Shown here: positions 1 through 22,957 of the stretch, in pieces | How positions within the stretch are numbered: position 1 is the first letter of the stretch | Layout: the number at the start of each line of letters is the position of its first letter | Assembly: GCA_015680635.1 (NCBI GenBank) | Contig: JAABOA010000064.1 | Location: 1 to 22,957 of the forward strand | DNA: 22,957 nt | Reading direction: 5' to 3' | Source of the DNA: Lunasporangiospora selenospora | Taxonomy: Eukaryota; Mortierellomycota; Mortierellomycetes; Mortierellales; Mortierellaceae | The notes under the pieces: generated by a model | Seen by the model: the letters and a program-made list of their open reading frames with translations, nothing else | Databases searched by the model: none | Told to the model about the DNA's origin: nothing | Program-made: the position numbers and the translations under genes

Positions 1-80
1 AAATATTTAAACGGCCGTTTCGGCCAGCTCAGTTTTCTTTTCTTTCTTTCTTCACGCCATCTACTGATGCATTTTGCACT

Positions 81-305
81 ATGGCCGACACAAATTTAAT
101 CCTTTTCTGCCTTGTTGATGGCGAAGCGACATCCAACGCGTTCCCAGTATCAGCATTAACTAAAACAACGATTGGAGAGCTCAAGGATCTCATTAAGAGC
201 AAGAAGTCACCTCGATTTGACGACACCGCAGCTAATGAGCTTATTCTTTGGAGAGCCTCCGTAGCAATCACGAATGACGACGAGCACCCCATCTCGACAG
301 CCTGA
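81..305 (+). pseudogene. Crinkler-type N-terminal domain, truncated
   Basis: An ATG at 81 opens a 74-codon frame whose product starts MADTNLILFCLVDGE and continues with a TTIGELKDLIK segment and an ELILWR segment. This is the ubiquitin-like header domain of Crinkler (CRN) proteins, which in oomycetes and mucoromycete fungi precedes a variable C-terminal effector or NTPase domain. Here the frame ends with TGA right after the header, so no C-terminal domain follows. In the +1 frame from about 289 the sequence reads LDSLTD, which fits how I recall the header continuing, so a small indel near 285-292 is the likely break; after that the similarity fades. The upstream sequence is CT-rich, as in fungal promoters, so the fragment may still be transcribed. 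It could also be a genuine header-only protein. The domain call is firm; the pseudogene status is an inference. Confidence 0.7.
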
Positions 306-777: not shown

Positions 778-1824
778 ATGATCTTCATTGACAGCCTCGT
801 TGGTTGGGTGGGACTAATCCTAGCCATCGGTGGAGAGATCAGTGGGACTGGCGTCCCCAATGCCAAGATCAGATATCATCTCCAGACTGGGAGGAGCTCC
901 ACGGACTCTGGAGGTGACATCCCTGCCGTCTGGCTCCGAGATACAAGCGATCGTCCTCTTGGTGCTTTCACCAACCCTTTCCGGTCAGACAAGGCCGGTA
1001 TCGACCAGTATTTTAATACTGATATCGAAACGAGTCAGCCAAGCGAACTCCGGTCCCTTGTATTCGAGTCGCAATGGACAGACTACGACATGTCTACCCG
1101 TCAAAAGCGCAGTGGGCCCCTCAACGATGGCATTTGCATTGCTTACCTGTCGTGGACACCCGAGGCCTCCATGTATAATTCAGAGTACCGACGAGGAGCC
1201 ATCATTGGAGACTTTTTCTATTTTTGCGGATTTGATTGGTATTATTCGGGCAAGGTCAAAGAGTTCGAGGGTCAGACGGCTCAATTGAGGTGTGGTTGGA
1301 TGGATGGAGACAACTCGAGCGGAAACTCTGCTAGCAGCATCGATATCGATACCGATCTTGTCGGAAGAGGGTTCCTTGAGAAGAATGCCAAGAATCTGCC
1401 CCAGATCCAGAGCCTTTGCGGTCAGGGACTCAACTTTGCAAGAACCGTGCTCCCACAGAAAATATCTATCCGCAAGACCTACAAGAATAAGGCCTATATT
1501 ACGGGAGGTGAAGGAGCCATCACACTCTGCGACAGTCCTACATCCTGGGGCCCATCGATGCTCAGCATGAAGGAAAAGATCTTTTGTGATATGGAGACAA
1601 AGACAAAGGTCCCTCTCTGTGGAGGCAACACGGTCTCTGGATGTGTCCAGTATGATCGCGTCCAAGGCAAGCCAAACAATAGTGGTAGCCATGCTCCTCC
1701 AGAGCGCTACTTAATCCCTGTGAACTTTACGAATGGAGAAATCAAGCCAACAGTCTACAAACTGGAGTACTTTACTCTCCTCTACACCAATGGCACTGTC
1801 CTAGACGATGGTGCAGATGTCTGA
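778..1824 (+). CDS. Secreted cysteine-rich protein, family not recognised
   Basis: A single long exon encodes 348 residues. I chose the ATG at 778 because the frame extension upstream of it has only a non-ATG start. The N-terminus (MIFIDSLVGWVGLILAIGG) is a hydrophobic stretch of signal-peptide type, although it lacks an early basic residue and could instead act as an anchor. The remainder has eight cysteines, all in the mature part (near GIC, YFCGF, RCGW, SLCGQ, TLCDS, FCDM, PLCGG, SGCVQ), enough for four disulfides, and several N-glycosylation sequons (NSS, NNS, NFT, NGT). There is no other transmembrane segment and no GPI-type hydrophobic tail. Together this suggests an extracellular or wall-associated globular protein. 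I do not recognise the family and assign no activity. There is no sign of frame damage, and codon usage looks ordinary. It converges on the minus-strand gene ending at 2171. Confidence 0.8.
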   Translation: MIFIDSLVGWVGLILAIGGEISGTGVPNAKIRYHLQTGRSSTDSGGDIPAVWLRDTSDRPLGAFTNPFRSDKAGIDQYFNTDIETSQPSELRSLVFESQWTDYDMSTRQKRSGPLNDGICIAYLSWTPEASMYNSEYRRGAIIGDFFYFCGFDWYYSGKVKEFEGQTAQLRCGWMDGDNSSGNSASSIDIDTDLVGRGFLEKNAKNLPQIQSLCGQGLNFARTVLPQKISIRKTYKNKAYITGGEGAITLCDSPTSWGPSMLSMKEKIFCDMETKTKVPLCGGNTVSGCVQYDRVQGKPNNSGSHAPPERYLIPVNFTNGEIKPTVYKLEYFTLLYTNGTVLDDGADV

Positions 1825-2170: not shown

Positions 2171-3959
2171 TTACCAGACACGCTCCTCTGCGCCAAAGTA
2201 GTCGGGCGTCTCATCCTCGCCATCTGCACCTTGACGAGCAGCAGGGGAACCGCGATACGCAGAGGGCAGAAGCTTTGTCTTGATCGCAGTGTGGCATGGG
2301 TTACGAAGGTAACGCACCGTGGGCGTCGAGCTGAATTCCTGACGACCAATCAGCATTGGCGCAGTCTCTCCCTCAGATGAGATGGCCTTCATGGGAGTGA
2401 CCTTGGATGATGGGTGAGCCAGGCTAAAGTTGACCTCGCTCGCATCAACAGAGTATCGGCGCATGCTCTTGAGCATCCTTCGGCGGTTCGCATTCTGCTC
2501 CATACGGCTAGGCGAAGCCTGGTTGTTGAGGAGATCCGAAAGAAGAGAGCGACGAGGTGCCCCAATAGGCGAACCGACATTGACCTTTGGAAACAAGGAA
2601 GCATTTGAATTGAAAGATGCTTGGTTAGAGAGCTTGTCTGGGAAAGATGAGGAGGAGGAGGGGGGGTAGTGGGTGTTGCTGGTATCGAAAGAATATGGAC
2701 ATGCTGTGCAGTGGCGAGGCTGTTGCTGTCCCTCGAACGTGAGCCGGGTTGTATTATGATCGGAGCTGAATATTGGGGCAGAGTGATTAGGGCGATCGTT
2801 GGCGTTATTGTTGCAGCCGTGGCAGCAATTGAGCCATTTACAGTCGTAATTGTACGAGATGGAAGGCATGTAACATCCACTGTCGGCTTGTGCAGCGCGG
2901 CAAAATGCAGGGTGATCCGAGACGCCCGAGTGCGACATTTTGGCGAGCAAGAAATGAACTTGAATGGTAGAGGCGAGAACACTGAGAACGCACAAAGCGT
3001 GTCCTGAGTTTGGGTAATGAAATTTGTGGGTGGTGTTGATGGTGAAGAAAATGCGGGTGGGAAAGAAGGAGGAGGGGTTCTATTTAACGGATGCTTTTGA
3101 TATGCTTACCTTGACGAGTTTTCCACTCAAGGGACCCGAGGACAAGCTCACGACCGCGAAATCGGCATTGCTAGCTATGTTGGTGGATGTGAATATGTGA
3201 AGAAGAAATAGAACGTGATGTCGGCGGCGGTTAATAGACAGTCTCGGAGACAGGCCACCAACTTGTGGTTATCAACTCTCTTTTCTCCCCTCTCCCTTCC
3301 CTACAAACACCACCAGGCTCTGATTTTTTGGACCAAAGACACCAATGTACGTCAGAGTCCAATGACCAGCAAGGCCACGTTGGGTCCACTGATCAAATCC
3401 CGGATACAGAGGATCGATATTCACACTTCATCCCAAAAAACAAACACACCCGCATTCGCACATACACACAGCCAAAAGAAGAAACTTACCATCGTTCGAA
3501 CCCGTCGACTCTGCCGCTCCGGCATTCGACAGGCTCTGCTGAAGCTGATTGAGTGAGATGGCACCCTCACTCTTGCGGTGCGCATGACGCGACTGCTGAA
3601 CAGGCGAGGCAGAGCCTTCAGCGATGACGAGCATGTCATAACGGTTGCTTGGCACAAGATACGATGGGTGGTCATAATGCTCATGATGCGAGGCCACTGC
3701 GAGACAGCTCACAGTACGGCGGTGCTTACCAGCGCTAGAAACATAATTGACCAGGGAAATGAACTGCAGTGTTAGACAGGCTCATGTATGTCTGTTTGTA
3801 CTGAATCACACAGGCCAACACTTTCATGGCTCAAAAATTGTTAAATGACTGCTACACGGCTTACCCTCTTCGGGTGGTCTTTGGCAGAGGTGCAAGACTG
3901 TCTGAGGTCTCCTCAAAGCGGCCAAACTTGAAGTGGCTCTGGGCAGGGTTGACAAGCAT
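2171..3959 (-). CDS. Spliced gene: Ser/Arg-rich protein of about 272 aa, unknown
   Basis: Modelled as four exons: 3959-3865 (ATG at 3959-3957), 3734-3490, 3174-3110 and a last exon ending with TAA at 2173-2171. Donors are GTAAGC, GTAAGT and GTAAGC; acceptors TTTCTAG and ACATAG join exons 1-3 in phase, giving an uninterrupted reading from MLVNPAQSHF to SGPLSGKLVK. For the last exon the best in-phase acceptor is TTTCCAAAG at 2585 (exon 2584-2171); AAG at 2633 is the next choice, and an open frame runs back to 2995, so its 5' edge is uncertain. The product is hydrophilic and Ser/Arg/Asn-rich, with no signal peptide or membrane segment. Three basic-Ser motifs (HRRTVS, PRRSLLS, MRRYSVD) resemble basophilic-kinase sites. 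The C-terminus is acidic, then ends DYFGAEERVW. Family not recognised; a cytoplasmic or nuclear regulatory phosphoprotein is possible, by composition only. Confidence 0.65.
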
Positions 3960-9071: not shown

Positions 9072-10285
9072 ATGTCGAAGGCAGGCAAGAAGGAAGTCTA
9101 TTTCCAGAAGCTCAAGACTTACTTGGAGGAGTACAACTCCATCTTCATTGTCAACGTTGACAATGTCGGTTCCAACCAGATGCACGAGATCCGTAAGGCT
9201 CTCCGTGGTGACGCTACCATCCTTATGGGTAAGAACACCATGGTTCGCCGTGCCATCCGTATCCTCCAGGAGGAGAACCCCAACTACGAGAAGCTCATGC
9301 CCTCGGTCCGCGGCAACATCGGTTTCGTCTTCACCAACTCTGACTTGAAGACCATCCGTGACAAGATCTTGGTCAACCGTGTCAAGGCTCCCGCCAAGGC
9401 TGGTGCCCTTGCCCCCGTTGATGTGTTCGTCCCTGCCGGTAACACCGGAATGGAGCCCGGCAAGACCTCTTTCTTCCAGGCTTTGGGTGTCCCCACCAAG
9501 ATTGCCCGTGGTACCATCGAAATTATCAACGATGTCCATCTTATCAAGGTCGGATTCCGTGTCGGTGCTTCCGAGGCTGCTCTTCTCAACATGTTGAACA
9601 TCTCTCCCTTCACCTACGGTTTGACCGTCGTCCAGGTTTACGACAACGGCACCGTCTTCCACCCCTCTGTCTTGGACATTGAGGAGGACACCCTTGTTGC
9701 CCAGTTCCTCCAGGGCATCAAGAACATTGCCGCCATCTCTCTCCAGATCGGTTACCCCACCGTTGCCTCGGTCCCCCACTCGCTCATCAACTCTTACAAG
9801 AACTTGTTGGCCGTCTCCATCTCCACCGAATACACCTTCCCTGGATCTGAGAAGGTAATGTTTTGTTGATTTTTTCTGCTTTATCTTTGCTTTGGTTTTC
9901 GATTCTGTTTGCCTTTGCACCCATTTCCCTTTTCATTCTACAATCTGTGCGAGCCGTGTGATGAAAAAACTCGACAAAGTCCTTCGGGACGGTGACGAGA
10001 AACTTCAAACACTCTAATTTTTTCCTGATGGTTCCCATTTCCTTTGGATGATACCATTGTTTGGACAAGAGAAAAATGACAAGAGATTCTGAACTAATTC
10101 GTTTTTTTTCTTTTATCTCATTGTTGGTACTCAAACAGATCAAGGCTTACCTCGCCGATCCCTCTGCTTTCGCCGTCGCTGCTGCCCCCGCTGCCGCTGC
10201 TGCCTCTGCCGAGAAGGCTGAGGAGAAGCCCGCCGAGAAGGAGGAGGAGTCCGATGACGACATGGGCTTCGGTCTCTTCGATTAA
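9072..10285 (+). CDS. RPP0: 60S acidic ribosomal protein P0 (uL10)
   Basis: Two exons, 9072-9854 (261 codons) and 10139-10285 (48 codons plus TAA), joined in phase 0 across a 284-nt intron (GTAATG...AAACAG) give a 309-residue protein, close to the roughly 310-320 residues usual for eukaryotic P0. P0 anchors the P1/P2 heterodimers on 28S rRNA to form the lateral stalk that recruits and activates elongation-factor GTPases. The N-terminal rRNA-binding L10 domain (residues about 5-105: [22 protein letters not shown], then [11 protein letters not shown]) is complete, followed by the eukaryote-specific insertion and the P1/P2-binding helices. Exon 2 gives the Ala-rich hinge, an acidic linker and the invariant stalk tail [11 protein letters not shown]. 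The codon bias is strong (C-ending codons, AAG, GAG), as for a highly expressed gene. The extension past the donor hits a stop after four codons, which confirms the intron. Confidence 0.97.
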
Positions 10286-10588: not shown

Positions 10589-11611
10589 ATGAGTTCACAG
10601 GGAAACAATAGCCATTCACCCCCGTCCAATCAAAGTCGAGAAGGATCGACTTCTTTTGGACAATTCAACACCCAAGGCGCGTCATCGCACGACCAGAATC
10701 CATCAGCATTCGGATGGGCTCCAGGGATGCCTCCCGTACTTTCTTTTCGCTCGTTTCATGAGGCCCACTTTTCACCCTCGAGAAAGTACGCCTTTTTTGC
10801 ACAGCATGCTGGCATGCCATGGACCTATGGCGCACCTCTTGTTCATGGGCCCCCAGTCATTAATGATACTGTAACGGCTTCAAGTAGTGAGGCGAGGTTG
10901 GAAGAAATGCATCAAAGAACAGCGGGTAGCTCTTATCAAGGACCAAACAACCACAACATCCGTTATGGTGTAGCGCCACTATCAGATCAGGAACGGGAGG
11001 AAGAGGGAGAGGAAGAGGAAAAGGAAGAAAGGGCGGAAAATCCAATGGGACTCAGCGCAGAGGCGTTCGCCATCTTTGAATTCTCCAGAAAGTTTCGAGA
11101 AGAAAAGGCACGCGCAGCTCAACAAGAGGCTGAGCTAGCCAGGAAAAAGAAAAGGAAACGACAGGGATTAAGAACCGGAGACCAAAAGAGACTGAATAGT
11201 TCATTTGCTGGATCTAAAGTCGGTCCTGACAGGAATGATATCATGGTCAAGGAGGGTAATCTTGAAGAGAATGACCTCGACGACGATGACGATGACGACG
11301 ACGATGATGATGAGGACAGCTCTTCAGAGGCTCAAGATGAACCATCCGTCACCGATATTACTTTTATGACTAAAAGGAAGCGGTATCGCGACAAGATCCG
11401 ACAGCGACTCTATTCTGAACAGGCATGCTCTTTAAGCGCAGAGGCACAGAAGCAGGTCAAGGAACAACGACAAAAGGTTGATATGCTTGAATCCATGTTG
11501 AACCAGACCTACAGGAGCAGTCTCGCATCACTCCCGTCAGCTTCCAGTCTAAAAGAGAAAGGGACCCAGCCCAAGGTCGTATACTGGCCCGGATTGCCCC
11601 TGCGCTGCTGA
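10589..11611 (+). CDS. Acidic, Lys/Arg-rich, probably nuclear protein, 340 aa, unknown
   Basis: A single-exon frame with a true ATG at 10589 and TGA at 11609. Residues 1-100 are Ser/Asn/Gln/Pro-rich and probably disordered. An acidic stretch (about 134-150) precedes a conserved-looking helical segment, GLSAEAFAIFEFSRKFREEK (154-173), and a basic cluster ARKKKRKRQ (184-192) of nuclear-localisation type. An 11-Asp run (231-241) is followed by a second basic helix TKRKRYRDKIRQR and a Gln/Lys coiled-coil-like stretch. The end reads VVYWPGLPLRC. The layout (disordered, basic, acidic, helical) fits a nuclear or nucleolar protein such as a chromatin or ribosome-assembly factor, but I do not recognise the family. 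It lies head to tail with P0, separated by 304 nt. A second model for its 3' end is given in the findings. Confidence 0.75.
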   Translation: MSSQGNNSHSPPSNQSREGSTSFGQFNTQGASSHDQNPSAFGWAPGMPPVLSFRSFHEAHFSPSRKYAFFAQHAGMPWTYGAPLVHGPPVINDTVTASSSEARLEEMHQRTAGSSYQGPNNHNIRYGVAPLSDQEREEEGEEEEKEERAENPMGLSAEAFAIFEFSRKFREEKARAAQQEAELARKKKRKRQGLRTGDQKRLNSSFAGSKVGPDRNDIMVKEGNLEENDLDDDDDDDDDDDEDSSSEAQDEPSVTDITFMTKRKRYRDKIRQRLYSEQACSLSAEAQKQVKEQRQKVDMLESMLNQTYRSSLASLPSASSLKEKGTQPKVVYWPGLPLRC

Positions 11612-12178: not shown

Positions 12179-13245
12179 TCAACTTTGATAGAGATCTAAT
12201 GCTGCTTTGACCAATGCACCGAGTAGATCGACTACTTTATCTGATCCAGTTTCGTCTCGTGCTTGTTGGTGTTGCTGCTCGGCCAAGACTTCTGCTTCTT
12301 CATCCTCTGCTTCTTGGAAGAGCACCACTCAATTTGCTTCCTCGAGCCCTACCTGCATTTGCTCGACTTCATATCGAGGAAACTCTTCTTCATCTTGGTC
12401 AACCTCAATGTCTTTGGAGGGCTCCTCGGTGGCAATTACCTCGAGTTCTTCGTCAGAAGATGAGGCGTCACTGATCTCAGGGAGGGACTCGATGGCAGAA
12501 ATATCATCTGCTGCATCAACTAGGGCTTCGGAATCGGACTCGAGCCCAGATTCTTCTTCAGAGATGGTCTCCAAATGTCAGACTGGTTCAAGGTAGAAGA
12601 AGAACCCGCCTCGACAGCCAAAAGCTCAACTTCTGTGGTCAGCTTCTTGCCCGTAGTCTTGTTACGGGCCTTGAACTCGTCCAAGATATCCAAAAGACTC
12701 TTACTCTTTCTGATCACCTCCTTGCAGATCGAGGCATCTCCCTCGGATTCGACAGAGTCAACTCAGAACATGGTCTTGGTCAGGCTCTCCTCAGTCATCA
12801 AGATCTGGTTCTTTATCGTGTTGGAGCCCTGGACGATCCGGTCCAACTCGGTGGCGAGGCCGTCGAGAACGGATTCGATGAGGTTGAGGTCAAAGCGCCT
12901 CCGATTCAGAGTCCGAGACTGCTGCTTTGCCTTGGATTCCTTGATAGCCTTGGCCCTAACCTGTGGCTGTGCTTGTGCATGGGCCTGAGCCTAGGCTGAG
13001 TCTGGGCCTTTGCCTTGCAGGCTTGAACTCGAGCTTGAGCAAGCGATCGATGATGCTGATACTCTTGTTCTATCTCTCGGCGTCTATATTTTCTCTGTGC
13101 AACTCCTAGTGTTTGGGATTCATTTCTTCATGGCCTTGATCTTTGTGCGACCCTCTCCTCTTTTCAGGAATCCCTTGAACTTTTTGGTGGCCCCTCTACT
13201 CTTTTGCCATCTCCCCCATCCCCTTGCTTTTCCTTTGGACGGCAT
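12179..13245 (-). pseudogene. Decayed gene, Lys-rich N-terminus and acidic C-terminus
   Basis: Reading on the minus strand from ATG at 13245, a coherent protein of roughly 350 residues can be followed through changing frames. It has a basic N-terminus (MPSKGK…, FKGFLKRGEGRTKIKAMKK), a Gln/Ala/Lys-rich segment, a helical part (RRRFDLNLIESVLDGLATEL, then IRKSKSLLDILDEF), an acidic Ser/Glu/Asp-rich part (ISEEESGLESDSEAL, SDASSSDEELEV) and a tail ending LVKAALDLYQS before TGA at 12181-12179. Lesions: TGA after KAMKK (about 13120), stops and shifts between about 13110 and 12960, TGA after TKTMF (about 12765), a frameshift near 12585, and TGA at 12331-12329 after which the same frame continues 49 codons to a natural stop. 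None of these breaks has splice signals around it. The domain order suggests a nuclear protein; family not recognised. It is divergent from gene X, sharing 13246-13600 as upstream region. Confidence 0.75.
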
Positions 13246-13600
13246 ACTCGAGTCCGTTCTTTCCCTATGATTCCCCAACTGCATTATGCATGTCATGCTC
13301 GCTGACCCTTGGGCAAGACAGCGTGCCCTTATTTTTGACCACCCCCTGTCCCTCCTTTCTCCGCATGTCCTTTTGGTCCTCTCTTTGCAAATTATCCCTG
13401 GTTATTTTAGTCAATCTGCTCTGGACTCTTCACTCCCTAATGTTTTAGGTGCCCACAACGTTTCTCGTTCATAGCCCAATGTGAAAACTCTGTTCCCCGT
13501 CTCCATTTCCAACTCTTCTATCTCCCTACATCATTCTCTGTCACACTCGTCCCTCTTCTTATTTCACTAATAGCGTAGAGCTACTTCCCTCTTGGCTGCC
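13246..13600. promoter_or_regulatory. Divergent upstream region with pyrimidine-rich block P1
   Basis: The region lies between the minus-strand pseudogene and the first gene X exon. Its right part (about 13366-13577) is C/T-rich and aligns by eye with 18111-18341 and 21249-21461, for example the word TTATTTT-GTCAA-CT-C followed by ACTCCC-T, GAAAACT and a final AGCGTAG. This marks the left edge of the threefold tandem array. Confidence 0.55.
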
Positions 13601-15560
13601 ATGGAGCCTACCTATTCGTTTGAATTCGATTTCACGCCCGGATTGATCGAGAAACTGGCATTCAGCAAGATGCCACCTGGCGATGACAGTCTAATCCTCG
13701 AGCGCGCCCCTGCAGTATTTGAACAGTTGGAGTCTTCAGTCCCCACCAGATGAGAGGATACTTACTTTGCTCTAAAAACCCTTTCAGGATATGAACTAGC
13801 TGTAGTCTGGTCGATCAGTCCTAGGCTCTCATTTCCTGCCCAATTATGAATCATATTGTCCAAACGGGAAATCCAGAAGACGGTTTGCCGTGTATGTCAT
13901 CAAAGAGGGGGATGGTAAAGGGGCTAGATTCTCAATTGGAACGACCATAATGAATATAGTATTGGTAAAGAACATTTGCTGGTACAGAACCAAGTGAACG
14001 ACAATCTCAAAAGAGACTAGGTAATTCAAGATGAATCAGAACCATCATATTACTCTGTTCATGCTACGGATACTGTTTTGTTGGCCATACTAAAGAGCCA
14101 TTGCACTTTTTCATTTCACATTATTGTCTCCAGGTATGCGTCAAACTTCAGGCAGCGGTCAAGGCCCATAACATGTGAGGGACAAATCAGTTCGATGGCA
14201 CCGCCTACCAAAGACTCAATGACATTGGCATCGGGTGCCACACCCTCCGATATCAATGCTTATGTAAATTTCCGTGATAGATGTCTCAAGTGATACAAAA
14301 CTTGGAATTTAGATAAAATAGAAAGGCCGTGCTTCCAATTGAAGGCTTCGAACAGCTCCTAAGTCAAAGGCAACATGCCTGTGGCCAAGCTGATCATGAA
14401 CAGAGCTTCCATGTTGGAAAAGCACGAGGACTAAGAATAACTGTCAACAAAAATAGAGCTTGAGGATAAACCAAACCACTATCATACTGTTGACCTCGTG
14501 CACTCTGATGGCTTTTATGTCAATCAGACTCTGAACTGTTCACCTAGTACATAGCTTGATCACGCAATCATCCGGTATAGATCAGATCTGCGTGTACGCG
14601 CCAATTTAGGTGTTCTAGACCTGCTGACCCTGTTTCCCGGTACATCTTTTTCTAATAGACACTTTACTTTCACCTATTACTCTTTGCCAGACTCATAGGC
14701 AGCCCTTGGAAAATCAAAGTCCATCACATTATGATAACTATCTGTTTTGTTCTCAAGTAACTACTTTGTTCTTTGATCTCCTTTCGGCAAAATTCCACGG
14801 GTCAGAGACCGGTTGATTGCAAATTTGGATGTCAATACTCTCGGCCATGGTACAAAATTGACCCTGCATACGTGAATATTGGTGCAGCATGTCACCAGCT
14901 TTATATCATTGCTCAGAAACGTGACCAGCAGGATTGTCTCTTTTTTGTCTAGGGGATAAAAAGACTAGAAATTCTCAAAAAGTTTGTGCCAGAGTCAAAC
15001 AATCAAATTCAGCGACAGCGGGTGTAGGTACGATAAATTTCCCATGAAATAGAGGGGTCTCTAATATTGATTTGAGAGACCAGGCATTACTGAACTGTGA
15101 GATCTAGTTCAGAACAGGATGAGTGTCATGTCAGCACATTGAACTCAAGAAGTCCAGACTATTCTTAGTGATAGAAACACCTTCAGTAGCTGAAAATGCA
15201 GGTATGATAATGCAGCTTTGTGGGGAGATGCTGTTGGTGTAGAGATGCGCCTATGAGATCTTTCTGTTTACTATAGCTCCATTTAGGTTTCGTCGGGATC
15301 GTCTACCAAGGCAGATCTATGGGCGAGATCGCTGCTGCTGAAGAGATGATATCGTGGATGATGCATCCTCCTCGAACTTGTGGGGACTTGGAGGAGCTTA
15401 TGGAAGATGGCTCGCCAGCACTCAATGCCAAAAGCGACAAGGAGTCATCATGAGAATGGCCAAGCCTGTGCGAGACGTATCCTAATACATCCTAATACAC
15501 AATACACATTAAACTACAATCCACAAGTGGCCCCAGGACAACGTGACCTGGCGCCCTCGA
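13601..15560 (+). pseudogene. Gene X, unit 1: longest but broken multi-exon copy
   Basis: Fragments in order: ATG at 13601 with 50 codons (MEPTYSFEFDFTPGLIEKL… to TGA 13751); a relic near 14370-14545 reading MPVAKLIMNRASMLEKHED, two in-frame stops, then NHYHTVDLVHSDGFYV; an exon ending LLTLFPG with donor GTACAT at 14640; a relic near 14865-14950 (ACHQLYIIAQKRDQQDC); YDNAALWGDAVGVEMRL near 15205; and a last exon from 15287 after acceptor ATTTAG (FVGIVYQGRSMGEIAAAEE…). In that exon one A is missing near 15430 relative to unit 2, which shifts the frame, and a TAA follows. The first exon may have lost its donor: AG|ATGAG stands at 13749 where AG|GTGAG would be expected, ahead of an acceptor-like CCTTTCAG near 13792. 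Family not recognised. Clearly dead in this unit. Confidence 0.6.
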
Positions 15561-16150
15561 TGAGACGGGGTAGAGAAGCGTAGCTCTTGTCCATTGTGCG
15601 TTATTACATAACAAAATCTCTCCAATCATTTGGCATCACTCTTTGCGATTGGCAGAATCAAAAGATGGATCAAAGTCTCTGTGATAACATGCAAGGACCA
15701 TGAACAAATACTGCCGAGGTAACATCATTAAAGGGTGATGAAGGAGTAGGCACAGTGTAGTATACAGGTGCATGAACAAGGGGTAGTGTAGATGCATGGA
15801 TGCAGAAAAATATATTCCTGTCTACCCGTCACAAAACTGAGGTTTCAAACACCCTTTCCCAAATGGATATCATTTCTCTTGATTCTCTTTCCCGAGACTC
15901 CTCCAGCATGAATCTTTTGTTGTAGTCACCAAAGGGTGTATAGGTTGTCTCTCGTATTTTTTTTATCCTCGGACTATTTTCAGCTGGATCGTACTGTCTC
16001 CTGCCCTTTTCACTCGCCCCTAGACCTAGACTGTTCATCGTCTTGTTATTGCCTGGATCCGCAAATATCTCATTCATACTTACCTTGCGTTTAGAATATT
16101 TTCGACCTGAGAGAGAGCTCGATCGGCTTGTCTTACTTACCAGTCACCCT
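15561..16150 (+). promoter_or_regulatory. Distal upstream region of lectin A
   Basis: Non-coding. Parts align with unit 2: the segment with TCCAATCATTTG and GCAGAAAAA (15620-15840 against 18890-19030) and a T-rich tract with TTGTCTC/GTCTCC (15935-16060 against 19400-19520). Just before the TATA box, the words GAGAGAGA and CCAGTCAC (16109-16147) are kept in both units. Confidence 0.45.
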
Positions 16151-16154
16151 TGGG

Positions 16155-16162
16155 TATATAAA
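16155..16162 (+). promoter_or_regulatory. TATA box of lectin A
   Basis: TATATAAA within TTGGGTATATAAAGTAGG. The same element sits at 19615-19622 in front of lectin B, with conserved flanks (CCAGTCAC before, AATGTACCCATTCT after), while most other intergenic sequence has diverged. This supports a working core promoter. Confidence 0.75.
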
Positions 16163-16313
16163 GTAGGGTTAATGTACCCATTCTCGTGTAACTCAAGACA
16201 GAACCCATTCCTACTCCATCCCTTCAGACTCACTACAACGCTCCTATACTCCACGTCCGAGATACACTCACCAATAACGCTCACAGCACACGCAAAATCT
16301 CGACCAAACCCTG

Positions 16314-16433
16314 GTAGGGGCCATCACCATGATGTTTAGAGCGCACGAAATATCTATTGGCCGTTCTCAAAGATTTTCCTAACCTTTCTTGTCCATTGTT
16401 GCTCCCACCAACCAAACCTTAGCCCAACAACAG
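16314..16433 (+). other. Probable intron in the lectin A leader
   Basis: Donor CTG|GTAGGG, branch-like CCTAACC (16378-16384) and acceptor CAACAG ending at 16433, ten nucleotides before the ATG. The matching positions in unit 2 (19728-19845) have the better donor GTAAGG. If unspliced, the leader would contain a 17-codon upstream frame starting ATGATGTTT, whose TAA overlaps the branch motif. Confidence 0.5.
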
Positions 16434-16443
16434 ATCCCACAAA

Positions 16444-16968
16444 ATGAAACTGCATCTGACATTGTTGATCGTCGCCAGTGCAGTCGTCCATTCCACTCTC
16501 GCTAAATTTGGGCCACCTAATCGTCTTAGGGTTCGCATCAATGGCAACCAGTGTCTTGGCTCAGAGGGGAACAGTGCTGCAGGCACCCAAAATGGAAAGA
16601 GTCCTATCTTTTGGCCCTGCAGTGATTCACCCGGAAGAAACGCATACTGGATGTACGATGTAGAGACTGGCCAGCTTGTCAGCCAAGCAAATCCTTCGCA
16701 GTGCCTTGGCTCGAGGGGGAACAGCGCTGACGGCACAAGAAATGGGATGAGTCCCATTTTTTATTCGTGCTCGGGTTCACCTGGAAAGAATGCTGTTTGG
16801 AGGTACGATCCAACCACAGGTCATCTCGTCACCGAAGCCGACCCAAAGCAGTGCCTTGGCTCGAAGGGAAACAGCGCTGGCGGCACAAGAAATGGAATGT
16901 CTCCTATTTTTTGGTCCTGTGCAAGCTCACCTGGAAACAATGCGGTTTGGAGATGGTCCCGCACCTGA
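16444..16968 (+). CDS. Secreted ricin-B-type (beta-trefoil) lectin A, 174 aa
   Basis: Intact frame from ATG at 16444. Residues 1-20 (MKLHLTLLIVASAVVHSTLA) form a clear signal peptide with an A-x-A-like cleavage site. The mature part consists of three repeats in exact register of 50 residues, starting at Q36, Q86 and Q136: QCLGS-G-S, GT-NG-SPIF, a second Cys 22 residues after the first, SPG-NA-W, then YD-TTGHLV. This is the layout of ricin B-type QxW repeats: one disulfide per repeat, the aromatic core Trp, and three repeats closing one beta-trefoil. Such lectins bind galactose or GlcNAc-type glycans, but the sugar-contact residues cannot be assigned here. No catalytic or toxic domain is attached, so it is a lectin-only secreted protein, plausibly acting in defence or surface recognition. 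It is nearly identical in layout to lectins B and C downstream, which arose by tandem duplication. Confidence 0.88.
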   Translation: MKLHLTLLIVASAVVHSTLAKFGPPNRLRVRINGNQCLGSEGNSAAGTQNGKSPIFWPCSDSPGRNAYWMYDVETGQLVSQANPSQCLGSRGNSADGTRNGMSPIFYSCSGSPGKNAVWRYDPTTGHLVTEADPKQCLGSKGNSAGGTRNGMSPIFWSCASSPGNNAVWRWSRT

Positions 16969-18110
16969 TAATCCCCAGTTCACAAAATTCCAGAATCGGC
17001 TCTAGAGTTGCATCGTCGCTCACACAAATCATGGCTTTCTAAGGATGTTTGTCCGCAATTGAAAGTCTTCAAAATAAAATATTCAATTTCTTGGCTACTA
17101 TTTGAATGTCGTTTTCAATGGACAGGTCTATATATTTCCTTCTCCCTCGCTCCTTCGTGGCTCAAAGCATCAATAATTCACAGACTTTCAAGATTGAATC
17201 AGCCGGGCTAAAAAAGAGAAAAAAAATAGAAATCCATGCAACAATGGCCTGGATCTCACCACCTCATGGCGACAAGGCTACTCCACAACTTACAAACACC
17301 CATTGCCTAAAAGCCCATTGTAATGGATTCATCTCTTCTAATATTTGGAAAAGGGTAAAAGTAGTCTTTCCATTACCCATGTGATCCTGACTAGTGTGGT
17401 TCAGGAGCAAAGGCTCAATCTGTATCCAACTAGATATCGTAATCGACGCGTCCTAGGATAATTTCAAGATGATCTCCACTTCTCCAGCCTAAGTCTCCAG
17501 ATGCTAGCGTAGCAAGGTTACTCTTGATGCAATCAAGACGGATACTTGCCGTTGCAGCTTTATTGTCCATTCTCCCTATCTCTGTATGCCTCTACGAAAC
17601 ACATTCCACGAGTCTTTATCTCTCTACGCTGCCGCTCCTAATAGCCATAGTACACGCGCTGCATTCTCAGAACTGGACAAAAAAAAGAATAAAGCCTGGA
17701 ATGGTAGAGGAAGGGATGAGCATTAGAATTAGCCTACTCGTCTAGAAAGACGAATAAGAGAGGTTCACTTTTGTTTTAAGAGTGAGATGGGCCGAGCCTT
17801 GTGGCCAGCTGTAGACTACATTCTATGGATCCGAGTTCCGGATTCGTCAGGTCAAATAAAAGGAGGACGAAATGGATGAGAAAACCAAGATCGCCGAATT
17901 GCAGTGCCCTTATTTTCTCTCAATGCTATTTCTAGTCATCCACGCTATTTTTTTTAGTTCGCCCCTTGGTCTCAATGATCTTCATCTTTTGGGCCGCCTC
18001 CTTCACTCTTCACATATCCATTACCCTTTTTTTCGCGATCCATTTTTTCTATTGATTGAATCCCCTGTCCTCTCCTCTAGTTGTTATTGTTGTTATTGTT
18101 TTTTTCACTT
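16969..18110 (+). other. 3' flank of lectin A and spacer to unit 2
   Basis: It begins with the 3' UTR (AATAAA at 17072-17077, matching 20486-20491 behind lectin B). The rest aligns in pieces with the flank of lectin B, including ATGCAATCAAGAC at 17527. The ATG-started frames at 17527 and 17872 are not conserved in unit 2 and are not called as genes. Confidence 0.45.
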
Positions 18111-18341
18111 CTTCTCTTGGTGCATTCGGCAAAATCTTGTTTCAGCACGCTCCTCTTTCTTGGCATCCTTGTGAACCTCTTTTCTCTATTTGCCCTTTGA
18201 TCCTCTCTAAATGTCCATGGTTATTTTGACTACCCTGTCCGTGAACTTTTACTCCCTTCATTTGTAGTGTATCCTCGACCTTCTTCGTCTTGGTCCAAAT
18301 ACGAAAACTCATCCCGATTTATTTTCTCTCTCCAAGCGTAG
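18111..18341 (+). repeat. Pyrimidine-rich block P2
   Basis: C/T-rich, ending CTCTCTCCAAGCGTAG. Closely related to 21249-21461 (P3), which ends with the same word, and more distantly to about 13366-13577 (P1). In unit 1 the block lies directly before the first exon of gene X, so it is probably the old gene X promoter. Confidence 0.6.
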
Positions 18342-18417
18342 TGCACAGTAGATATAGCTTGATCACGTTATACGCCTGCCCGTAGATTGGCTCTGTGCGC
18401 ACGCGTCTATTACACAG

Positions 18418-18820
18418 TTCTTGGGATACTGACCCTGTGTCCAGGTACATTTTTTTTCTATTACTATTTGGCACACTCTTAGTTAACTCACAATCTATTA
18501 CAAAAACCATTTGTTTAATTTTTAAACACCATATTGACTCCCCTTTTTCATCCAAACTCCATTTAGGTTTTGTCCAGGTTAGCTACCAAGCCAGAGCTTT
18601 GGGCAGGATCGCTGCTGCTAAAGAGATAATATCGAGTATGATGCGTCCTCCTCGAACTTGTAGGGACTTGGAGGTTCTTATTGAAGATAGCTCTCTAGCA
18701 CTCAATGCCAAAAAGCGACAAGGAGTCATCGTGAGGATGGTCAAGCCTGTGCGAGACGTTTCTACCCTACATTTCAATGCACAATATACCTCAACCTACA
18801 ATCCACAAGCGGTTCCATGA
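18418..18820 (+). pseudogene. Gene X, unit 2: last two exons only, frame intact
   Basis: A 27-nt exon (18418-18444, after acceptor TTACACAG) and the last exon (18567-18820, after acceptor CCATTTAG) join across a 122-nt GT-AG intron to read LGILTLCPG then FVQVSYQARALGRIAAAKEI, a conserved-looking middle (MMRPPRTCRDLEVLIEDSS), and an end at NPQAVP before TGA. Unlike unit 1, the last exon has no lesion over 84 codons. All exons upstream of it are missing from unit 2, although the pyrimidine block that precedes gene X is still present about 80 nt upstream. It could therefore be a relic, or the end of a transcript that is still spliced. Family not recognised. Confidence 0.55.
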
Positions 18821-19560
18821 AAATGTGGCCTAGCCCTTTTGAAAAGACGAGGTAGAGAAACCATAGCTCATTACATACCAAACTTTATCCAATCATTTGA
18901 CACGAGTCTTTGCGAATGGCAGAATTACGATATGGGTGCAAGTGCATGAACAAGGAGGTGGTAAAGATGCAGAGAGGAATGAGTGATGCAGAAAAACAAA
19001 ATCCTGTCTGCCTGTCACAATTGCTGTTCTGCAAGCGGCCAAGTAATTGTGACCCTCTCCTTCATTTCTTCCTTTTAGTGAAGAAGAACTTGCAGTTGGT
19101 GTCTCCAACGTGTTCTCATCGCACAGAGTGCTGCCCGTACCCACTGGTCCCTCTTCAACAAGGAGAGAGAATGGCAGATGGGCTTGGGGGGAGGGAACAA
19201 AAGGCGCTCCTCGCAAGGAGACTTATTAGCGTGCCAATGATAAAAAAATAGGAAGCCCTCGGTGGTGCTGTCCTCCCCTTGCTCCTTTGCGCACCCTCGA
19301 TTTTTATCCCTGCGTGCTACACCGCCTGCTGCTACCTGTCCCCCGTCTGTTTTTAGAAATTATTTTTTTTGCTTCATTGCAGCCCTCAGATGGTGTAAAG
19401 TTGTCTCCCCTCGTTTTTTCTTTTCATCCTCTGACTTTTTCTCGGCTGGGTTGCGTTGTCTCTTGTTTTCCACTATCCCCTAGCCTGTTTCCCGTCTTGT
19501 TATCACCTGAAAATATCTTGTCTCTCCTTTCGCTCTGATTTGCCTTGTGATTGAAGTGTT
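18821..19560 (+). promoter_or_regulatory. Distal upstream region of lectin B
   Basis: Non-coding and largely alignable with 15561-16100 of unit 1, but with an extra segment of about 300 nt near 19030-19330. Open frames on both strands here are not conserved between the units. Confidence 0.4.
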
Positions 19561-19614
19561 CTAGATCCGAGAGAGAATTCGGCCAACTTGTCATACTCAC
19601 CAGTCACTTTTGGG

Positions 19615-19622
19615 TATATAAA
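19615..19622 (+). promoter_or_regulatory. TATA box of lectin B
   Basis: TATATAAA in the same context as in front of lectin A, with CCGAGAGAGA and CCAGTCAC upstream and AATGTACCCATTCT downstream. Confidence 0.75.
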
Positions 19623-19727
19623 GTAGGATCAATGTACCCATTCTAGTGCACTAAAGATACAATCCATTCCCTCCTCATCCCTCTAGACTTACTATAAGGC
19701 TCCTACAGTCGCCACAAACGACACTTG

Positions 19728-19845
19728 GTAAGGACTCCCACCATGATGTTTGGAGCGCACAAGATATCTATTAGCCGTTCTCAAACATCTTCCTAACCTC
19801 TCTATTGTTGCTCCAACCAACCAAACCTTCTTAGTTTGATAACAG
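19728..19845 (+). other. Probable intron in the lectin B leader
   Basis: Donor TTG|GTAAGG, branch-like CCTAACC (19792-19798) and acceptor GATAACAG ending at 19845, ten nucleotides before the ATG. All three signals match the lectin A leader in position. Confidence 0.6.
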
Positions 19846-19855
19846 ATCCCACAAA

Positions 19856-20380
19856 ATGAAAATGCATCTGTCATTGTTGATCGTCGCCAGCGCAGTCGTC
19901 CATTCCGCTCTCGCTGATTTTGGGCCAGCCTATCGTCTTAGGGTCAATGTCAATACCTACCAGTGCCTAGGCTCGGAAGGGAACAGTGCTCTAGGCACCC
20001 AAAATGGAAAGAGTCCTATCTTTTGGGCCTGCAGTAATTCACCTGGAAAAAATGCATATTGGATGTACGATGTAGTGACCGGTCATCTTGTCAGCCAAGC
20101 AGATCCTACGCAGTGCCTTGGCTCGAGGGGAAACAGCGCTGAAGGCACGACAAATGGGCAGAAACCCATTTTTTATTCATGCGCAGGATCCCCCGGAAGG
20201 AATGCTGTTTGGATCTTCGATCCAACCACAGGTCATCTTGTCACCGAGGCCGATCCTACGCAGTGCCTTGGCTCGCAAGGGAACAGCGCTCTCGGCACAA
20301 GTAATGGATCGTCTCCTATCTTTTGGTCCTGTGCAGATTCACCTGGACTCAATGCGGTTTGGATCTGGTCCGAAAATTGA
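19856..20380 (+). CDS. Secreted ricin-B-type (beta-trefoil) lectin B, 174 aa
   Basis: Intact paralogue of lectin A with the same length, the same 20-residue signal peptide layout (MKMHLSLLIVASAVVHSALA) and the same three 50-residue repeats at Q36, Q86 and Q136. All six repeat cysteines, the NG-P-F core, SPG and the Trp of each NA-W motif are kept. Differences from lectin A concentrate in loops, for example between CLGS and the NG turn (SALGTQ, SAEGTT, SALGTS) and after NA-W (WIFD and WIW in place of WRYD and WRW), which in beta-trefoil lectins lie near the glycan sites. A shift in binding specificity is therefore possible but unproven. The core promoter, leader intron and AATAAA are shared with lectin A, so the two are probably expressed in the same way. 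Confidence 0.88.
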   Translation: MKMHLSLLIVASAVVHSALADFGPAYRLRVNVNTYQCLGSEGNSALGTQNGKSPIFWACSNSPGKNAYWMYDVVTGHLVSQADPTQCLGSRGNSAEGTTNGQKPIFYSCAGSPGRNAVWIFDPTTGHLVTEADPTQCLGSQGNSALGTSNGSSPIFWSCADSPGLNAVWIWSEN

Positions 20381-21248
20381 TAAACTATGCTTGATAAATA
20401 ACGTATCCCAGAATCAGCTTTAGATTTAATTGTCGCTCACATAAGTCAACTATTTATTTGGTCCGTAATGAGAAGTCATTTCCAAAATAAAACATTTAGT
20501 TTATTAGTCACTATTGTCGTTTTCAATAGACAGATCTATGCTGCCTATTCTCTTCCCTCCTCCCCCATGGCCCAAACCAGCAATGCTTCAAACTGCCAAG
20601 ACTGAATAAAGTAGCTGGCGCCCAAAAAATAATAACTAGAAATCCGTGCAACAATGACCTGGATTCCATCTCTTTTAATATTTGGAAAGAGATACAAGTA
20701 GCCTTTCCATCACCCATGAAATCCTGTCTAGTATGATTAGGAGCAGAGACTCGATTTTTACTCGTAATCGACACTTTCTAGCAAAATGCCACAACCATCT
20801 CCACTCCTCCAACCCATGAGAGCGTGGCAAGGTTACCGTTATGCAATCAAGACAGATACTTGTCAATACGGTCGTTTTTGTTTACTCTTCCTGTTTCTGT
20901 ACACTTCTATGAAGCATTCCTCCACAGGTCTTTTATCCCTCCATGCCTCCGCTCCAGGTTGCTATTGTACACGTGCCGTATGCTGGTGTACCGTGCAAAA
21001 AGAATAAAGTTAGGAAGGGTTGAGGATAAGCCGAGTATTAGAGTCATCTCACTCGCCTAGCGAGACGAATAAGGGAGGTGAGCCAAGTCTTGTGGTCAAC
21101 TGGGGTCTCCTATCTATAGGCGCAGAGTTCCGGTCTCGTCAAACCAAATAAGGGGCACGCTCGCCGAGTCTTGGTGTCCATCCTTGGTCGTTTGGGCCGT
21201 CTCTCCTCTTTTGACCGAATCCCTTCTCCCTACCTTTTTTTTCTCTCA
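20381..21248 (+). other. 3' flank of lectin B and spacer to unit 3
   Basis: It contains the 3' UTR with AATAAA (20486-20491) and sequence matching the lectin A flank. A segment of about 68 nt present in unit 1 (about 17255-17325) is missing at 20665, between short TGGAT repeats. No gene is seen. Confidence 0.45.
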
Positions 21249-21461
21249 GTTCTTCTCTTGGTACATTCGGCATACCATCCTCGCAATCTTGTTTCAGCGC
21301 GTCCCTTTTTCTCAGTGTCCTCATGCCCCTCTTCCTTCTGGTTGCCCTTTGCTCCTCTCCAAATGTTCATGACTATTTTGACCACCCTACCCTTAAACTT
21401 TTACTCTCCTTGGTTCAAATGCGAAAATTCGTTCTGATTTATTTTCTCTCTCCAAGCGTAG
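21249..21461 (+). repeat. Pyrimidine-rich block P3
   Basis: Third copy of the block, close to P2 and ending with the same CTCTCTCCAAGCGTAG word. Confidence 0.6.
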
Positions 21462-21519
21462 CATGCGCACAAATGATCACCTCCAGCTATGTGGATTTTT
21501 TCTGCGTGTGCGCGTCTAT

Positions 21520-22140
21520 TACACAGCTCTTGGCCTGCTGACCTTGTGTCCAGGCACATCTTTGTTTCCTATCATTCTTTGCCAGACTCTTATTTTTAAG
21601 CGCCATATTGTGATTTGACCTCCTTTCTGCAAGGTCTCATCGTCGCCTTACACACGTGAGTGAAGGCAAGCTGGTATGCAGCATGTTCTGGCAAACTGGT
21701 ATGCAGCATGTTCTGGCAAACTGGTATGCAGCACGTTCACCATTGCACAGAAATCTGATCAGTATGGTTATCTCTAGTTTGGCTTGGAGAGGGAAAAAAA
21801 ATAAATCTTTCTAGTTCTCAAAAAGTATGTGCCGGTGTCAAAAGGTCACACCCAGTGGCAACAGACACAAGGTCGATAAACTTTTTCTTGCATCGAGTTT
21901 CCAACATTGAGTTTAAGAAACTATACACCTTTGAATCTAGGCCACGCAATTAATAATAGGAAGAGTGCCAATGTCAGCACATTACATCCAAGAACCTCAT
22001 CCTGTTTTTTTCGGTGTAGAACCCCTTTGGTGACGATGACTGATATTTTCAGGTACGATAAAGCTGCTCGATGTTGCCGTTGATGTGGAGAAACGCTTGT
22101 GAGAATATCTTCTCCAGCAATGTTCGAATTTAAGGTTTCG
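21520..22140 (+). pseudogene. Gene X, unit 3: internal remnant
   Basis: It begins with the short exon (…LGLLTLCPG) whose donor is GCACAT at 21554, where units 1 and 2 have GTACAT. It then follows unit 1 in order: TTCTCAAAAAGT-TGTGCC near 21818, GATAAA-TT near 21875, ATGTCAGCACATT near 21971, and the exon after TTTTCAG at 22053 (G|TACGATAAAGCTGC), which has an in-frame TGA in the frame matching unit 1. The region corresponding to the last exon starts at TTTAAGGTTTCGTTGGG (22129) but soon loses similarity. Clearly not functional. Confidence 0.55.
21671..21738. repeat. 25-bp tandem repeat, 2.7 copies
   Basis: Copies start at 21671, 21696 and 21721 with the core CTGGTATGCAGCATGTTC. The first two are identical; the third has one change (CATG to CACG) and is cut short. 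It lies in the gene X remnant of unit 3, at the place that corresponds to GGTGCAGCATGTCACC of unit 1, where only one copy exists. Confidence 0.9.
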
Positions 22141-22382
22141 TTGGGGGGGTCAGAGCACACGCTACAGCAAGGCTTGTGTCGCAGGGCGGAGCAGACCTGT
22201 TTCATCCAAAAAGCAAAGATTTGGAACGATGGTTTTTCGTTTTTTCTTTCTCTGCTTGCAAGTCGCTCTTTTTTTTTCTTTTTTTTTTCTTCAGCCAAAT
22301 ATCTACACTCTGGCAAAGCAAATCTCCCCACTCTCTACTCTTGCCTCTCAAACCTTCCTCGTCCGACAACAAATCCTACAGG
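22141..22382 (+). promoter_or_regulatory. Leader region of lectin C, without the paralogue promoter
   Basis: The last 90 nt or so resemble the leaders of lectins A and B (AAATATCTA, then CTCAAACCTTC before the ATG), but the acceptor CAACAG is changed to CAACAA. The TATA box, CCAGTCAC word and donor are not present upstream, where gene X sequence and a T-rich tract are found instead. Whether lectin C is expressed is therefore open. Confidence 0.5.
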
Positions 22383-22957
22383 ATGAAATTGTGTCTATCA
22401 ATAGTGATCGTCGCCAGCGCAATCGCCCATTCCACTTATGCTACTCCTGGACCACCCCGTCGTCTTCATGTCGCAGCCAATACCGGACAGTGCCTTGGCG
22501 CATGGGGAGACAGCGATGAAGGCACCAAAAATGGAATGAGTCCTGTCTTTTGGTCCTGCGAAGACTCACCTGGAAACAATGCATTTTGGAAGTACGATCC
22601 AGCAACCGGCCATATCACCACTCGAGTGGATCCTAACCAATGCCTTGGCTCAAGAGGTCAGGGCAGTGAAGGTACAAGAGATGGAGAGATCCCTATCTTT
22701 TGGTCCTGCGCAGATTCGCCTGGCCCCAATGCAGTTTGGATATTTGATCCAACAACAGGTCATCTCGCCACCAGAGCCGACCCGAATCAGTGCCTTGGCT
22801 CCTGGGGAAAGGGTGATGATGGCACACGAAACGGAAGGAGTCCTGTCTTTTGGTCCTGCACAGGTTCACCTGGGCTCAATGCGGTTTGGGAATGGTCAAA
22901 GAAAAAGTCCACTCCATGGTATAACATTGAACGACGTCTCAGAATTCAGTTTTTTTT
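22383..22957 (+). CDS. Secreted ricin-B-type lectin C, 3' end outside the window
   Basis: ATG at 22383 opens a frame that is still open at the window end (191 codons). Signal peptide (MKLCLSIVIVASAIAHSTYA) followed by the same three 50-residue repeats as in lectins A and B, starting at Q36, Q86 and Q136, with all six cysteines and the NA-W motif in each (NAFW, NAVW, NAVW). Differences cluster again in the loop after CLG (AWGDSDEGTK, SRGQGSEGTR, SWGKGDDGTR), which is more charged than in A and B. Where A and B stop after residue 174, C has AAG and continues with KSTPWYNIERRLRIQFF into sequence that aligns with their 3' UTR (CAGAATTCAG against CAGAATCAGC). It thus has a C-terminal extension by stop loss. 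The trefoil itself is undamaged. Confidence 0.85.
   Translation, partial: MKLCLSIVIVASAIAHSTYATPGPPRRLHVAANTGQCLGAWGDSDEGTKNGMSPVFWSCEDSPGNNAFWKYDPATGHITTRVDPNQCLGSRGQGSEGTRDGEIPIFWSCADSPGPNAVWIFDPTTGHLATRADPNQCLGSWGKGDDGTRNGRSPVFWSCTGSPGLNAVWEWSKKKSTPWYNIERRLRIQFF

Follow-up and report, generated by a model that had tools for sequence, protein, structure and literature searches.

Successive copies of one gene along a fungal contig raise the question of what has been duplicated, and which parts have since been kept. The window analysed here is a 22,957 nucleotide stretch of Lunasporangiospora selenospora DNA (assembly GCA_015680635.1, contig JAABOA010000064.1, positions 1-22,957, forward strand), which a first-pass annotation described as carrying a threefold array pairing a lectin gene with a decaying gene, termed gene X.

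Three lectin genes in tandem

The window contains three lectin ORFs in tandem, each uninterrupted, with start-to-start spacings of 3412 and 2527. The positions of the ORFs hence bear out both the starts at 16444, 19856 and 22383, and the shrinking spacing, that had been annotated:

16444..16968, + strand: lectin copy 1, 174 aa, an uninterrupted ORF with a signal-peptide-like N-terminus and three 50-residue trefoil repeats
19856..20380, + strand: lectin copy 2, 174 aa, an uninterrupted ORF
22383..22957, + strand: lectin copy 3, its frame still open where the contig ends, without a stop; strong homology to copies 1 and 2 stops near 22897

Copy 2 is 80% identical to copy 1, and the coding DNA differs at 79/522, 149/519 and 144/519 positions across the three copy pairs (15-29%). 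The frame of copy 3 runs beyond the point where copies 1 and 2 stop, and the contig ends at 22957 without reaching a stop codon or the 3' flank of this copy. Therefore the lectins, annotated as intact, are demonstrably so in two of the three copies.

Shared DNA around the lectins

Self-comparison of the window recovered the collinear diagonals outside the lectins that a tandem array predicts, well above chance relative to three reversed-sequence controls, for which the best E values were 0.12, 0.13 and 0.009. Units 1 and 2 share 15277-15676/18557-18943 (E 1.75e-85) and one long block, 15920-17764/19377-21079 (E 0.0), which holds the lectin and both its flanks, and the 3' part of which (17324-17764/20660-21079) reached E 7.5e-49 on its own. 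Units 2 and 3 share 18096-18484/21237-21595 (E 2.4e-49), and units 1 and 3 share 14907-15297/21741-22145 (E 1.4e-28). Flanking collinearity is strong for copies 1 and 2, whereas copy 3 has just part of the upstream DNA and approximately 60 bp before its start. When the 3' flank of copy 1 was searched through the assembly, it matched inside the window only. The shared elements are:

13369..13490, + strand: pyrimidine-rich block of unit 1, matching 18193-18310 (66% identity, E 8.4e-7)
18096..18484, + strand: pyrimidine-rich block and piece A of unit 2, matching 21237-21595 in unit 3
21237..21595, + strand: pyrimidine-rich block and piece A of unit 3, matching the unit 2 block
16141..16443, + strand: promoter region of copy 1, common to copy 2, with TATATAAA at 16155
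19601..19855, + strand: promoter region of copy 2, with TATATAAA at 19615
22322..22382, + strand: short stretch directly 5' of copy 3, matching the other copies; unit 3 lacks TATATAAA
16969..17849, + strand: 3' flank of copy 1, collinear with the copy 2 flank to about 21141
20381..21141, + strand: 3' flank of copy 2, collinear with the copy 1 flank

A lectin promoter had been annotated in all three units. It is common to copies 1 and 2, but not copy 3: TATATAAA occurs in the window at these two positions only, and copy 3 is preceded by no counterpart of the TATA box found in copies 1 and 2. Without the common promoter, and with no stop seen, copy 3 may be a decaying gene, or one whose end is missing; this counts against the reading preferred below. 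Hence the tandem lectins and their collinear surroundings stand, but not the recurrence of all parts in the same order: neither the promoter nor a well-matching gene-X piece C is present in unit 3, and the first kilobase of gene X is missing from units 2 and 3. The array exists, albeit in a less regular form than first described.

Putative remnants of gene X

The DNA assigned to gene X survives as the following pieces, in addition to those adjoining the pyrimidine-rich blocks of units 2 and 3:

13601..13750, + strand: gene-X piece in unit 1 only, with gene-like codon use and no Pfam match
14551..14698, + strand: piece A of unit 1; 14551-14657 matches unit 2 (E 1.6e-11), the final 25 bases only at E 0.12
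14907..15297, + strand: piece B of unit 1, matching 21741-22145 of unit 3 (63%)
21741..22145, + strand: piece B of unit 3, counterpart of that in unit 1
15277..15676, + strand: piece C of unit 1, its reading frame shifted relative to unit 2
18557..18943, + strand: piece C of unit 2, partly within a 144-codon open stretch from 18386

Piece B is confined to units 1 and 3, a good alignment of piece C to units 1 and 2, and the stretch from approximately 13500 to 14550 of unit 1 matched nothing in the other two units below E 0.1. The units thus keep different pieces, but that these come from a decaying gene is plausible only, as no relative was found. In unit 1, codon use is gene-like in two pieces but not in a further five, and shuffles produce open frames as long as its longest; the 144-codon open stretch of unit 2 exceeds shuffles (P 0.002), with its first ATG at codon 85. 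Among 2469 word-sharing protein candidates, none was a homologue of the joined reading of the open pieces at E up to 10; in Pfam, five unit 1 pieces gave no row up to E 1, and the unit 2 piece a single sub-threshold row (E 0.19). Nor was gene X detected elsewhere in the assembly by searches of low reach, of which one missed the known unit 2 and unit 3 matches of its query and another missed unit 3. A dispersed transposon is not favoured, as no further copies were seen in the species' own assembly, itself probably incomplete.

Selection on the lectins

Across the three pairs, lectin dN/dS was 0.44 (95% interval 0.26-0.74), 0.47 (0.30-0.73) and 0.43 (0.28-0.65), falling to 0.39, 0.44 and 0.34 in the mature part. 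In the 26-codon signal stretch, ratios of 1.17 (pair 1-2) and 1.89 (pair 2-3) had intervals spanning 1. By comparison, the sole alignable piece of gene X, the 62 codons of piece C, gave 2.77 (0.98-15.5), and no codon-position constraint was found in it. The lectins are therefore under moderate purifying selection, consistent with the annotated contrast between kept lectins and decaying neighbour. As to the further suggestion of selection for lectin number or diversity, the kept copies are under purifying selection, but no diversifying selection was seen. A dN/dS of approximately 0.44 is only moderate, which weighs against the preferred reading.

Between copies 1 and 2, dS is 0.30, whereas their immediate 5' flanks differ at 66 of 438 aligned columns, 97 gap columns aside. 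As lectin dS exceeds this divergence, the immediate 5' flank either is itself conserved or has been homogenised; its lesser divergence likewise tells against the preferred reading.

A variant family of trefoil lectins

Against PF00652 (cut-off 29 bits), copy 1 scored 46.1 bits (E 6.7e-12) and copy 3 scored 40.6 bits (E 3.4e-10), while copy 2 had no row at E up to 10; the remaining Pfam rows of all three copies fell below their cut-offs. The predicted structure of copy 2 is a clear beta-trefoil of ricin-B/CBM13 type (pLDDT 85.9, pTM 0.80). No PDB chain was convincing by sequence for copy 3, the best being a tyrosinase (E 0.12). All three copies have cysteine pairs at 37/59, 87/109 and 137/159, one per repeat of approximately 50 residues, and a hydrophobic N-terminal stretch, which suggests that the proteins are probably exported.

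Five uncharacterised relatives, 45-56% identical to copy 2 in the alignment, belong to the same family by sequence: P0001 and P0005 (Actinomortierella ambigua), P0003 (Podila verticillata), P0004 (Podila humilis) and P0002 (JGI), the last with two repeats only. This number is a lower bound, as the protein-database search requires shared 5-residue words. The four with a named source are from Mortierellaceae, which backs the first-pass assignment of the DNA to an early-diverging fungus. The three window lectins group together against the five relatives in a tree, both supports being below the program's starred level. These low supports, the absent PF00652 row for copy 2, and the lack of a convincing PDB chain for copy 3, count against the preferred reading. 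A PF00652 family search of the assembly found at least one other ricin-B-like place (C321:12137-12496), a minimum given that it missed the window's own lectins.

Motifs were counted in the 23 repeats of these eight proteins. Each repeat has CLG, CLV or CLS in place of CLD, so the aspartate after the first Cys-Leu, the ligand-binding residue of canonical QxW ricin-B lectins, is missing throughout; this leaves binding of a sugar uncertain, and counts against the preferred reading. Among the copies, the residue two positions after CLG varies in repeats 1 and 3, and is constant in repeat 2.

Origin and function of the array

The locus probably arose through local tandem duplication of a single beta-trefoil gene (R-type/CBM13-like), with a probably secreted and putatively glycan-binding product, the lectins being kept while the spacers eroded. 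An ancestral lectin copy and its flanks would have undergone two duplications, the first separating off copy 3, and the later one giving copies 1 and 2. The coding part would then have been retained under moderate purifying selection, while the co-duplicated intergenic DNA, perhaps including a gene already dead before the last copying, underwent drift, with a different set of pieces lost from each unit; these differing losses are proposed to underlie the shorter spacing. The protein, probably exported, would form a three-repeat trefoil, with two presumably disulfide-bonded cysteines per repeat, and bind glycans outside the cell. Its role might lie in recognising, or defending against, other organisms of the soil, or else in binding polysaccharide of the fungus itself or of plant litter.

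The array might instead be a defence or recognition locus, a possible role in itself, with extra copies kept for diverse specificities and diversifying at the binding face. The secreted-looking trefoils, the variation two residues after CLG, and the ability of CCL2-type fungal trefoil lectins to poison nematodes and insects (excerpted in PMC3355094) all point this way, but the mature-part ratios are well under 1, and those above 1 are confined to the signal stretch, leaving this version rather unlikely. Less probable still is that lectin and gene X were once a functional pair, with gene X a selected passenger lost later: their co-duplication in units 1 and 2, and the gene-like codon use and long open stretch noted above, would fit, yet homologue, Pfam and own-genome searches, the last of limited reach, returned nothing convincing outside the window, and piece C is without codon constraint.

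Two further alternatives concern the identity between copies. Gene conversion could have homogenised copies 1 and 2 around the lectin, such that identity there overstates selection. Per 100 columns, units 1 and 2 are indeed 0.76-0.91 identical over the promoter and lectin (16141-16991), against 0.67-0.79 downstream; however, piece C, distant from the lectin, is likewise 0.84-0.85 identical, dN is less than half of dS within the lectin gene, and the downstream drop may reflect merely more indels and misalignment in non-coding DNA, making conversion a doubtful explanation. Misjoining of allelic or duplicated contigs is suggested by the fragmentation of the assembly (475 contigs, 8.2 Mb), which is probably incomplete; Mortierellaceae genomes are larger than this. 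Yet coding differences of 15-29% are far from allelic, and every copy has its own distinct flank, and such an artefact is thus very improbable.

Comparison with known lectins

Tandem duplication with a decaying spacer is a common, ordinary arrangement; the R-type lectin subfamily it carries is an unusual, little-known variant of a famous fold. Little work seems to have been done on the lectins of early-diverging soil fungi: the open-licence literature yielded nothing joining Mortierella with ricin B lectin, matches to Mortierellaceae and lectin being unrelated by title, and the excerpt of PMC11291939 reports no ricin-type lectin in Mortierellomycota. More tentatively, Mortierellaceae may have a class of secreted trefoil lectins peculiar to them: QxW would have become NxxW and the aspartate would have been lost from every repeat, giving a different binding chemistry for recognising soil neighbours, and in this genome the class would be multiplying locally. 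Trefoils in which both hallmark motifs are replaced, but the fold, cysteines and aromatic residue persist, would reveal the extent to which the R-type scaffold can change; a small array within one species offers a convenient system for asking whether copies bind differently.

R-type lectins have three repeats of approximately 50 residues with two cysteines in each, and ricin-B lectins at least one QxW per repeat, although modules with 0 to 6 have been counted (both from an excerpt of PMC11212257). The window lectins resemble the R-type/CBM13 family (PF00652; the Streptomyces lividans xylanase CBM13, 1knl) in their trefoil model, repeat length and paired cysteines, in the W ending each repeat, and in the W or Y two residues before the second cysteine (22/23 repeats). 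They differ in their extra residues relative to CBM13, and in having NxxW (23/23 repeats) instead of QxW (0/8 proteins). Moreover, 1knl has CLD at the aligned place in its third repeat, whereas the window family has none (0/23); in this alignment, the second CLD of 1knl is split by a gap, and that of the first repeat lies outside the aligned region. Like CCL1 and CCL2, fruiting-body lectins of Coprinopsis cinerea, they are fungal beta-trefoil lectins with paralogues. However, the excerpt of PMC3355094 describes CCL1 and CCL2 as predicted to lack a secretion signal; hence the window proteins, with their signal-like hydrophobic N-terminus, appear to be of a different kind from the cytoplasmic CCL2.

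Extent of the lectin array

The window comprises the whole of contig C55 (22,957 bases), from an assembly of 8.2 Mb in 475 contigs, and a search of that assembly with the lectin sequence, at E up to 10, matched only the three places in the window listed below.

Lectin genes of the window
16444-16968, forward strand: copy 1, ORF of 174 aa
19856-20380, forward strand: copy 2, ORF of 174 aa
22383 onwards, forward strand: copy 3, ORF still open at the contig end

At the protein level, copy 1 is 80% and copy 3 is 64% identical to copy 2. The first-pass annotation's description of these lectins as intact holds for copies 1 and 2, whose ORFs are complete; the frame of copy 3 reads beyond the stop-codon position of the other two, with no stop codon between its start and the contig end.

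Self-comparison of the window bore out the expectation of collinear DNA outside the lectins, in blocks far exceeding reversed-sequence controls (best E 0.12, 0.13 and 0.009). From 15277 to 17849, unit 1 (copy 1 with its flanking DNA) aligns near-continuously with unit 2. Units 2 and 3 have in common an upstream block (18096-18484 / 21237-21595) and the lectin with ~60 bp 5' of its start, while units 1 and 3 have in common the lectin and pieces A and B of gene X, the presumed decaying gene upstream of the lectins. The order of parts is thus common to the units, but near-complete copying is confined to units 1 and 2. The proposed threefold recurring array holds largely for two units and in part for the third. 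The promoter word TATATAAA occurs in the window solely at 16155 and 19615, and a promoter containing it was not found upstream of copy 3. Three near-perfect 25-bp tandem repeats (21665-21738) were reported in unit 3 only.

Searching 5.8 billion proteins twice, once with copy 2 and once with a profile, returned five distinct relatives: two from Actinomortierella ambigua, one each from Podila verticillata and Podila humilis (all Mortierellaceae), and one JGI-derived. In an eight-row tree, including one short row (P0002, with only two trefoil repeats), the window copies grouped together (92/92), copies 1 and 2 being closest (81/83). This grouping suggests that the duplications were local and that they postdate the split from the relatives sampled. 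A different ricin-B-like place in the assembly (L034, G000:C321:11000-13500) has one TAA within the match, and a repeat with NQKW and an LD, unlike the window lectin family.

Selection on the lectins, and the nature of gene X

Nei-Gojobori dN/dS, with codon-bootstrap intervals, was 0.44 (0.26-0.74) for lectin pair 1-2, 0.47 (0.30-0.73) for pair 1-3 and 0.43 (0.28-0.65) for pair 2-3, and all three pairs had an excess of differences at third codon positions (p = 0.009, 0.031 and 0.015). When random substitutions were introduced in the numbers observed between copies, copy 1 stayed stop-free in 5.1% of 5000 trials after 79 changes and 0.7% of 5000 after 149, and copy 2 in 0.9% of trials after 144. 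Hence the lectins are retained by moderate purifying selection. Their ratios lie below that of the best gene X piece (units 1-2, 62 codons; 2.77, 0.98-15.5), as had been anticipated.

Mismatches in that piece, which belongs to piece C (15318-15480, 18598-18766), were distributed 11/8/6 by codon position, with no sign of codon constraint between units 1 and 2. It was nevertheless somewhat better conserved than the DNA just 3' of it (25/191 mismatches vs 39/174; p = 0.027). In unit 1, two pieces had gene-like codon use, 13601-13750 and piece C, with no null window scoring as high, and five others did not; piece C of unit 2 was intermediate, by a rough measure trained on four window frames (only one, ribosomal P0, with a Pfam family) that places the three lectins themselves just in the top 3-9% of the null. 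Unit 2 has an open stretch of 144 codons (P = 0.002 vs shuffles), in which the first ATG comes at codon 85; the longest in units 1 (90 codons, P = 0.52) and 3 (67 codons, P = 0.87) are ordinary. Protein-database and Pfam searches found no homologue, and searches of limited reach found no gene X elsewhere in the assembly. The best fit for gene X is a putative gene remnant, probably already inactive when the last duplication took place.

Other features of the window

3-305, forward strand: Crinkler effector N-terminal domain (PF20147, E 5.3e-16), with a stop soon after the match and the contig start close; 11 PF20147 matches in the assembly, 9 above cut-off
778-1824, forward strand, and 2171-2938, reverse strand: long ORFs lacking any Pfam match at E ≤ 10
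9072-10285, forward strand: ribosomal protein uL10/P0 gene, its frame appearing to resume after one intron (~9855-10138); a possible taxonomic marker
10589-11611, forward strand: long ORF with an acidic run and only sub-threshold Pfam rows
12179-13127, reverse strand: several open stretches, some acidic, two in one frame with a stop near 12763 between them; three pieces searched against Pfam gave no rows; possibly another gene, either decayed or interrupted by introns

Discussion

The first-pass interpretation is, as a whole, half supported. As a genome feature the array is a common kind of event; of more interest is the lectin family with its altered motifs. Export, disulfides and glycan binding are predicted for these lectins: most likely they would act as small exported trefoils that bind glycans around the hypha. 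The two or three versions differ slightly from one another, and two have a promoter in common. A defence role is known from trefoil lectins of other fungi, among them CCL2 of Coprinopsis cinerea fruiting bodies (PMC3355094); for the window lectins it is no more than a lead. No secretion signal is predicted for CCL2 (PMC3355094), whereas the window lectins look exported.
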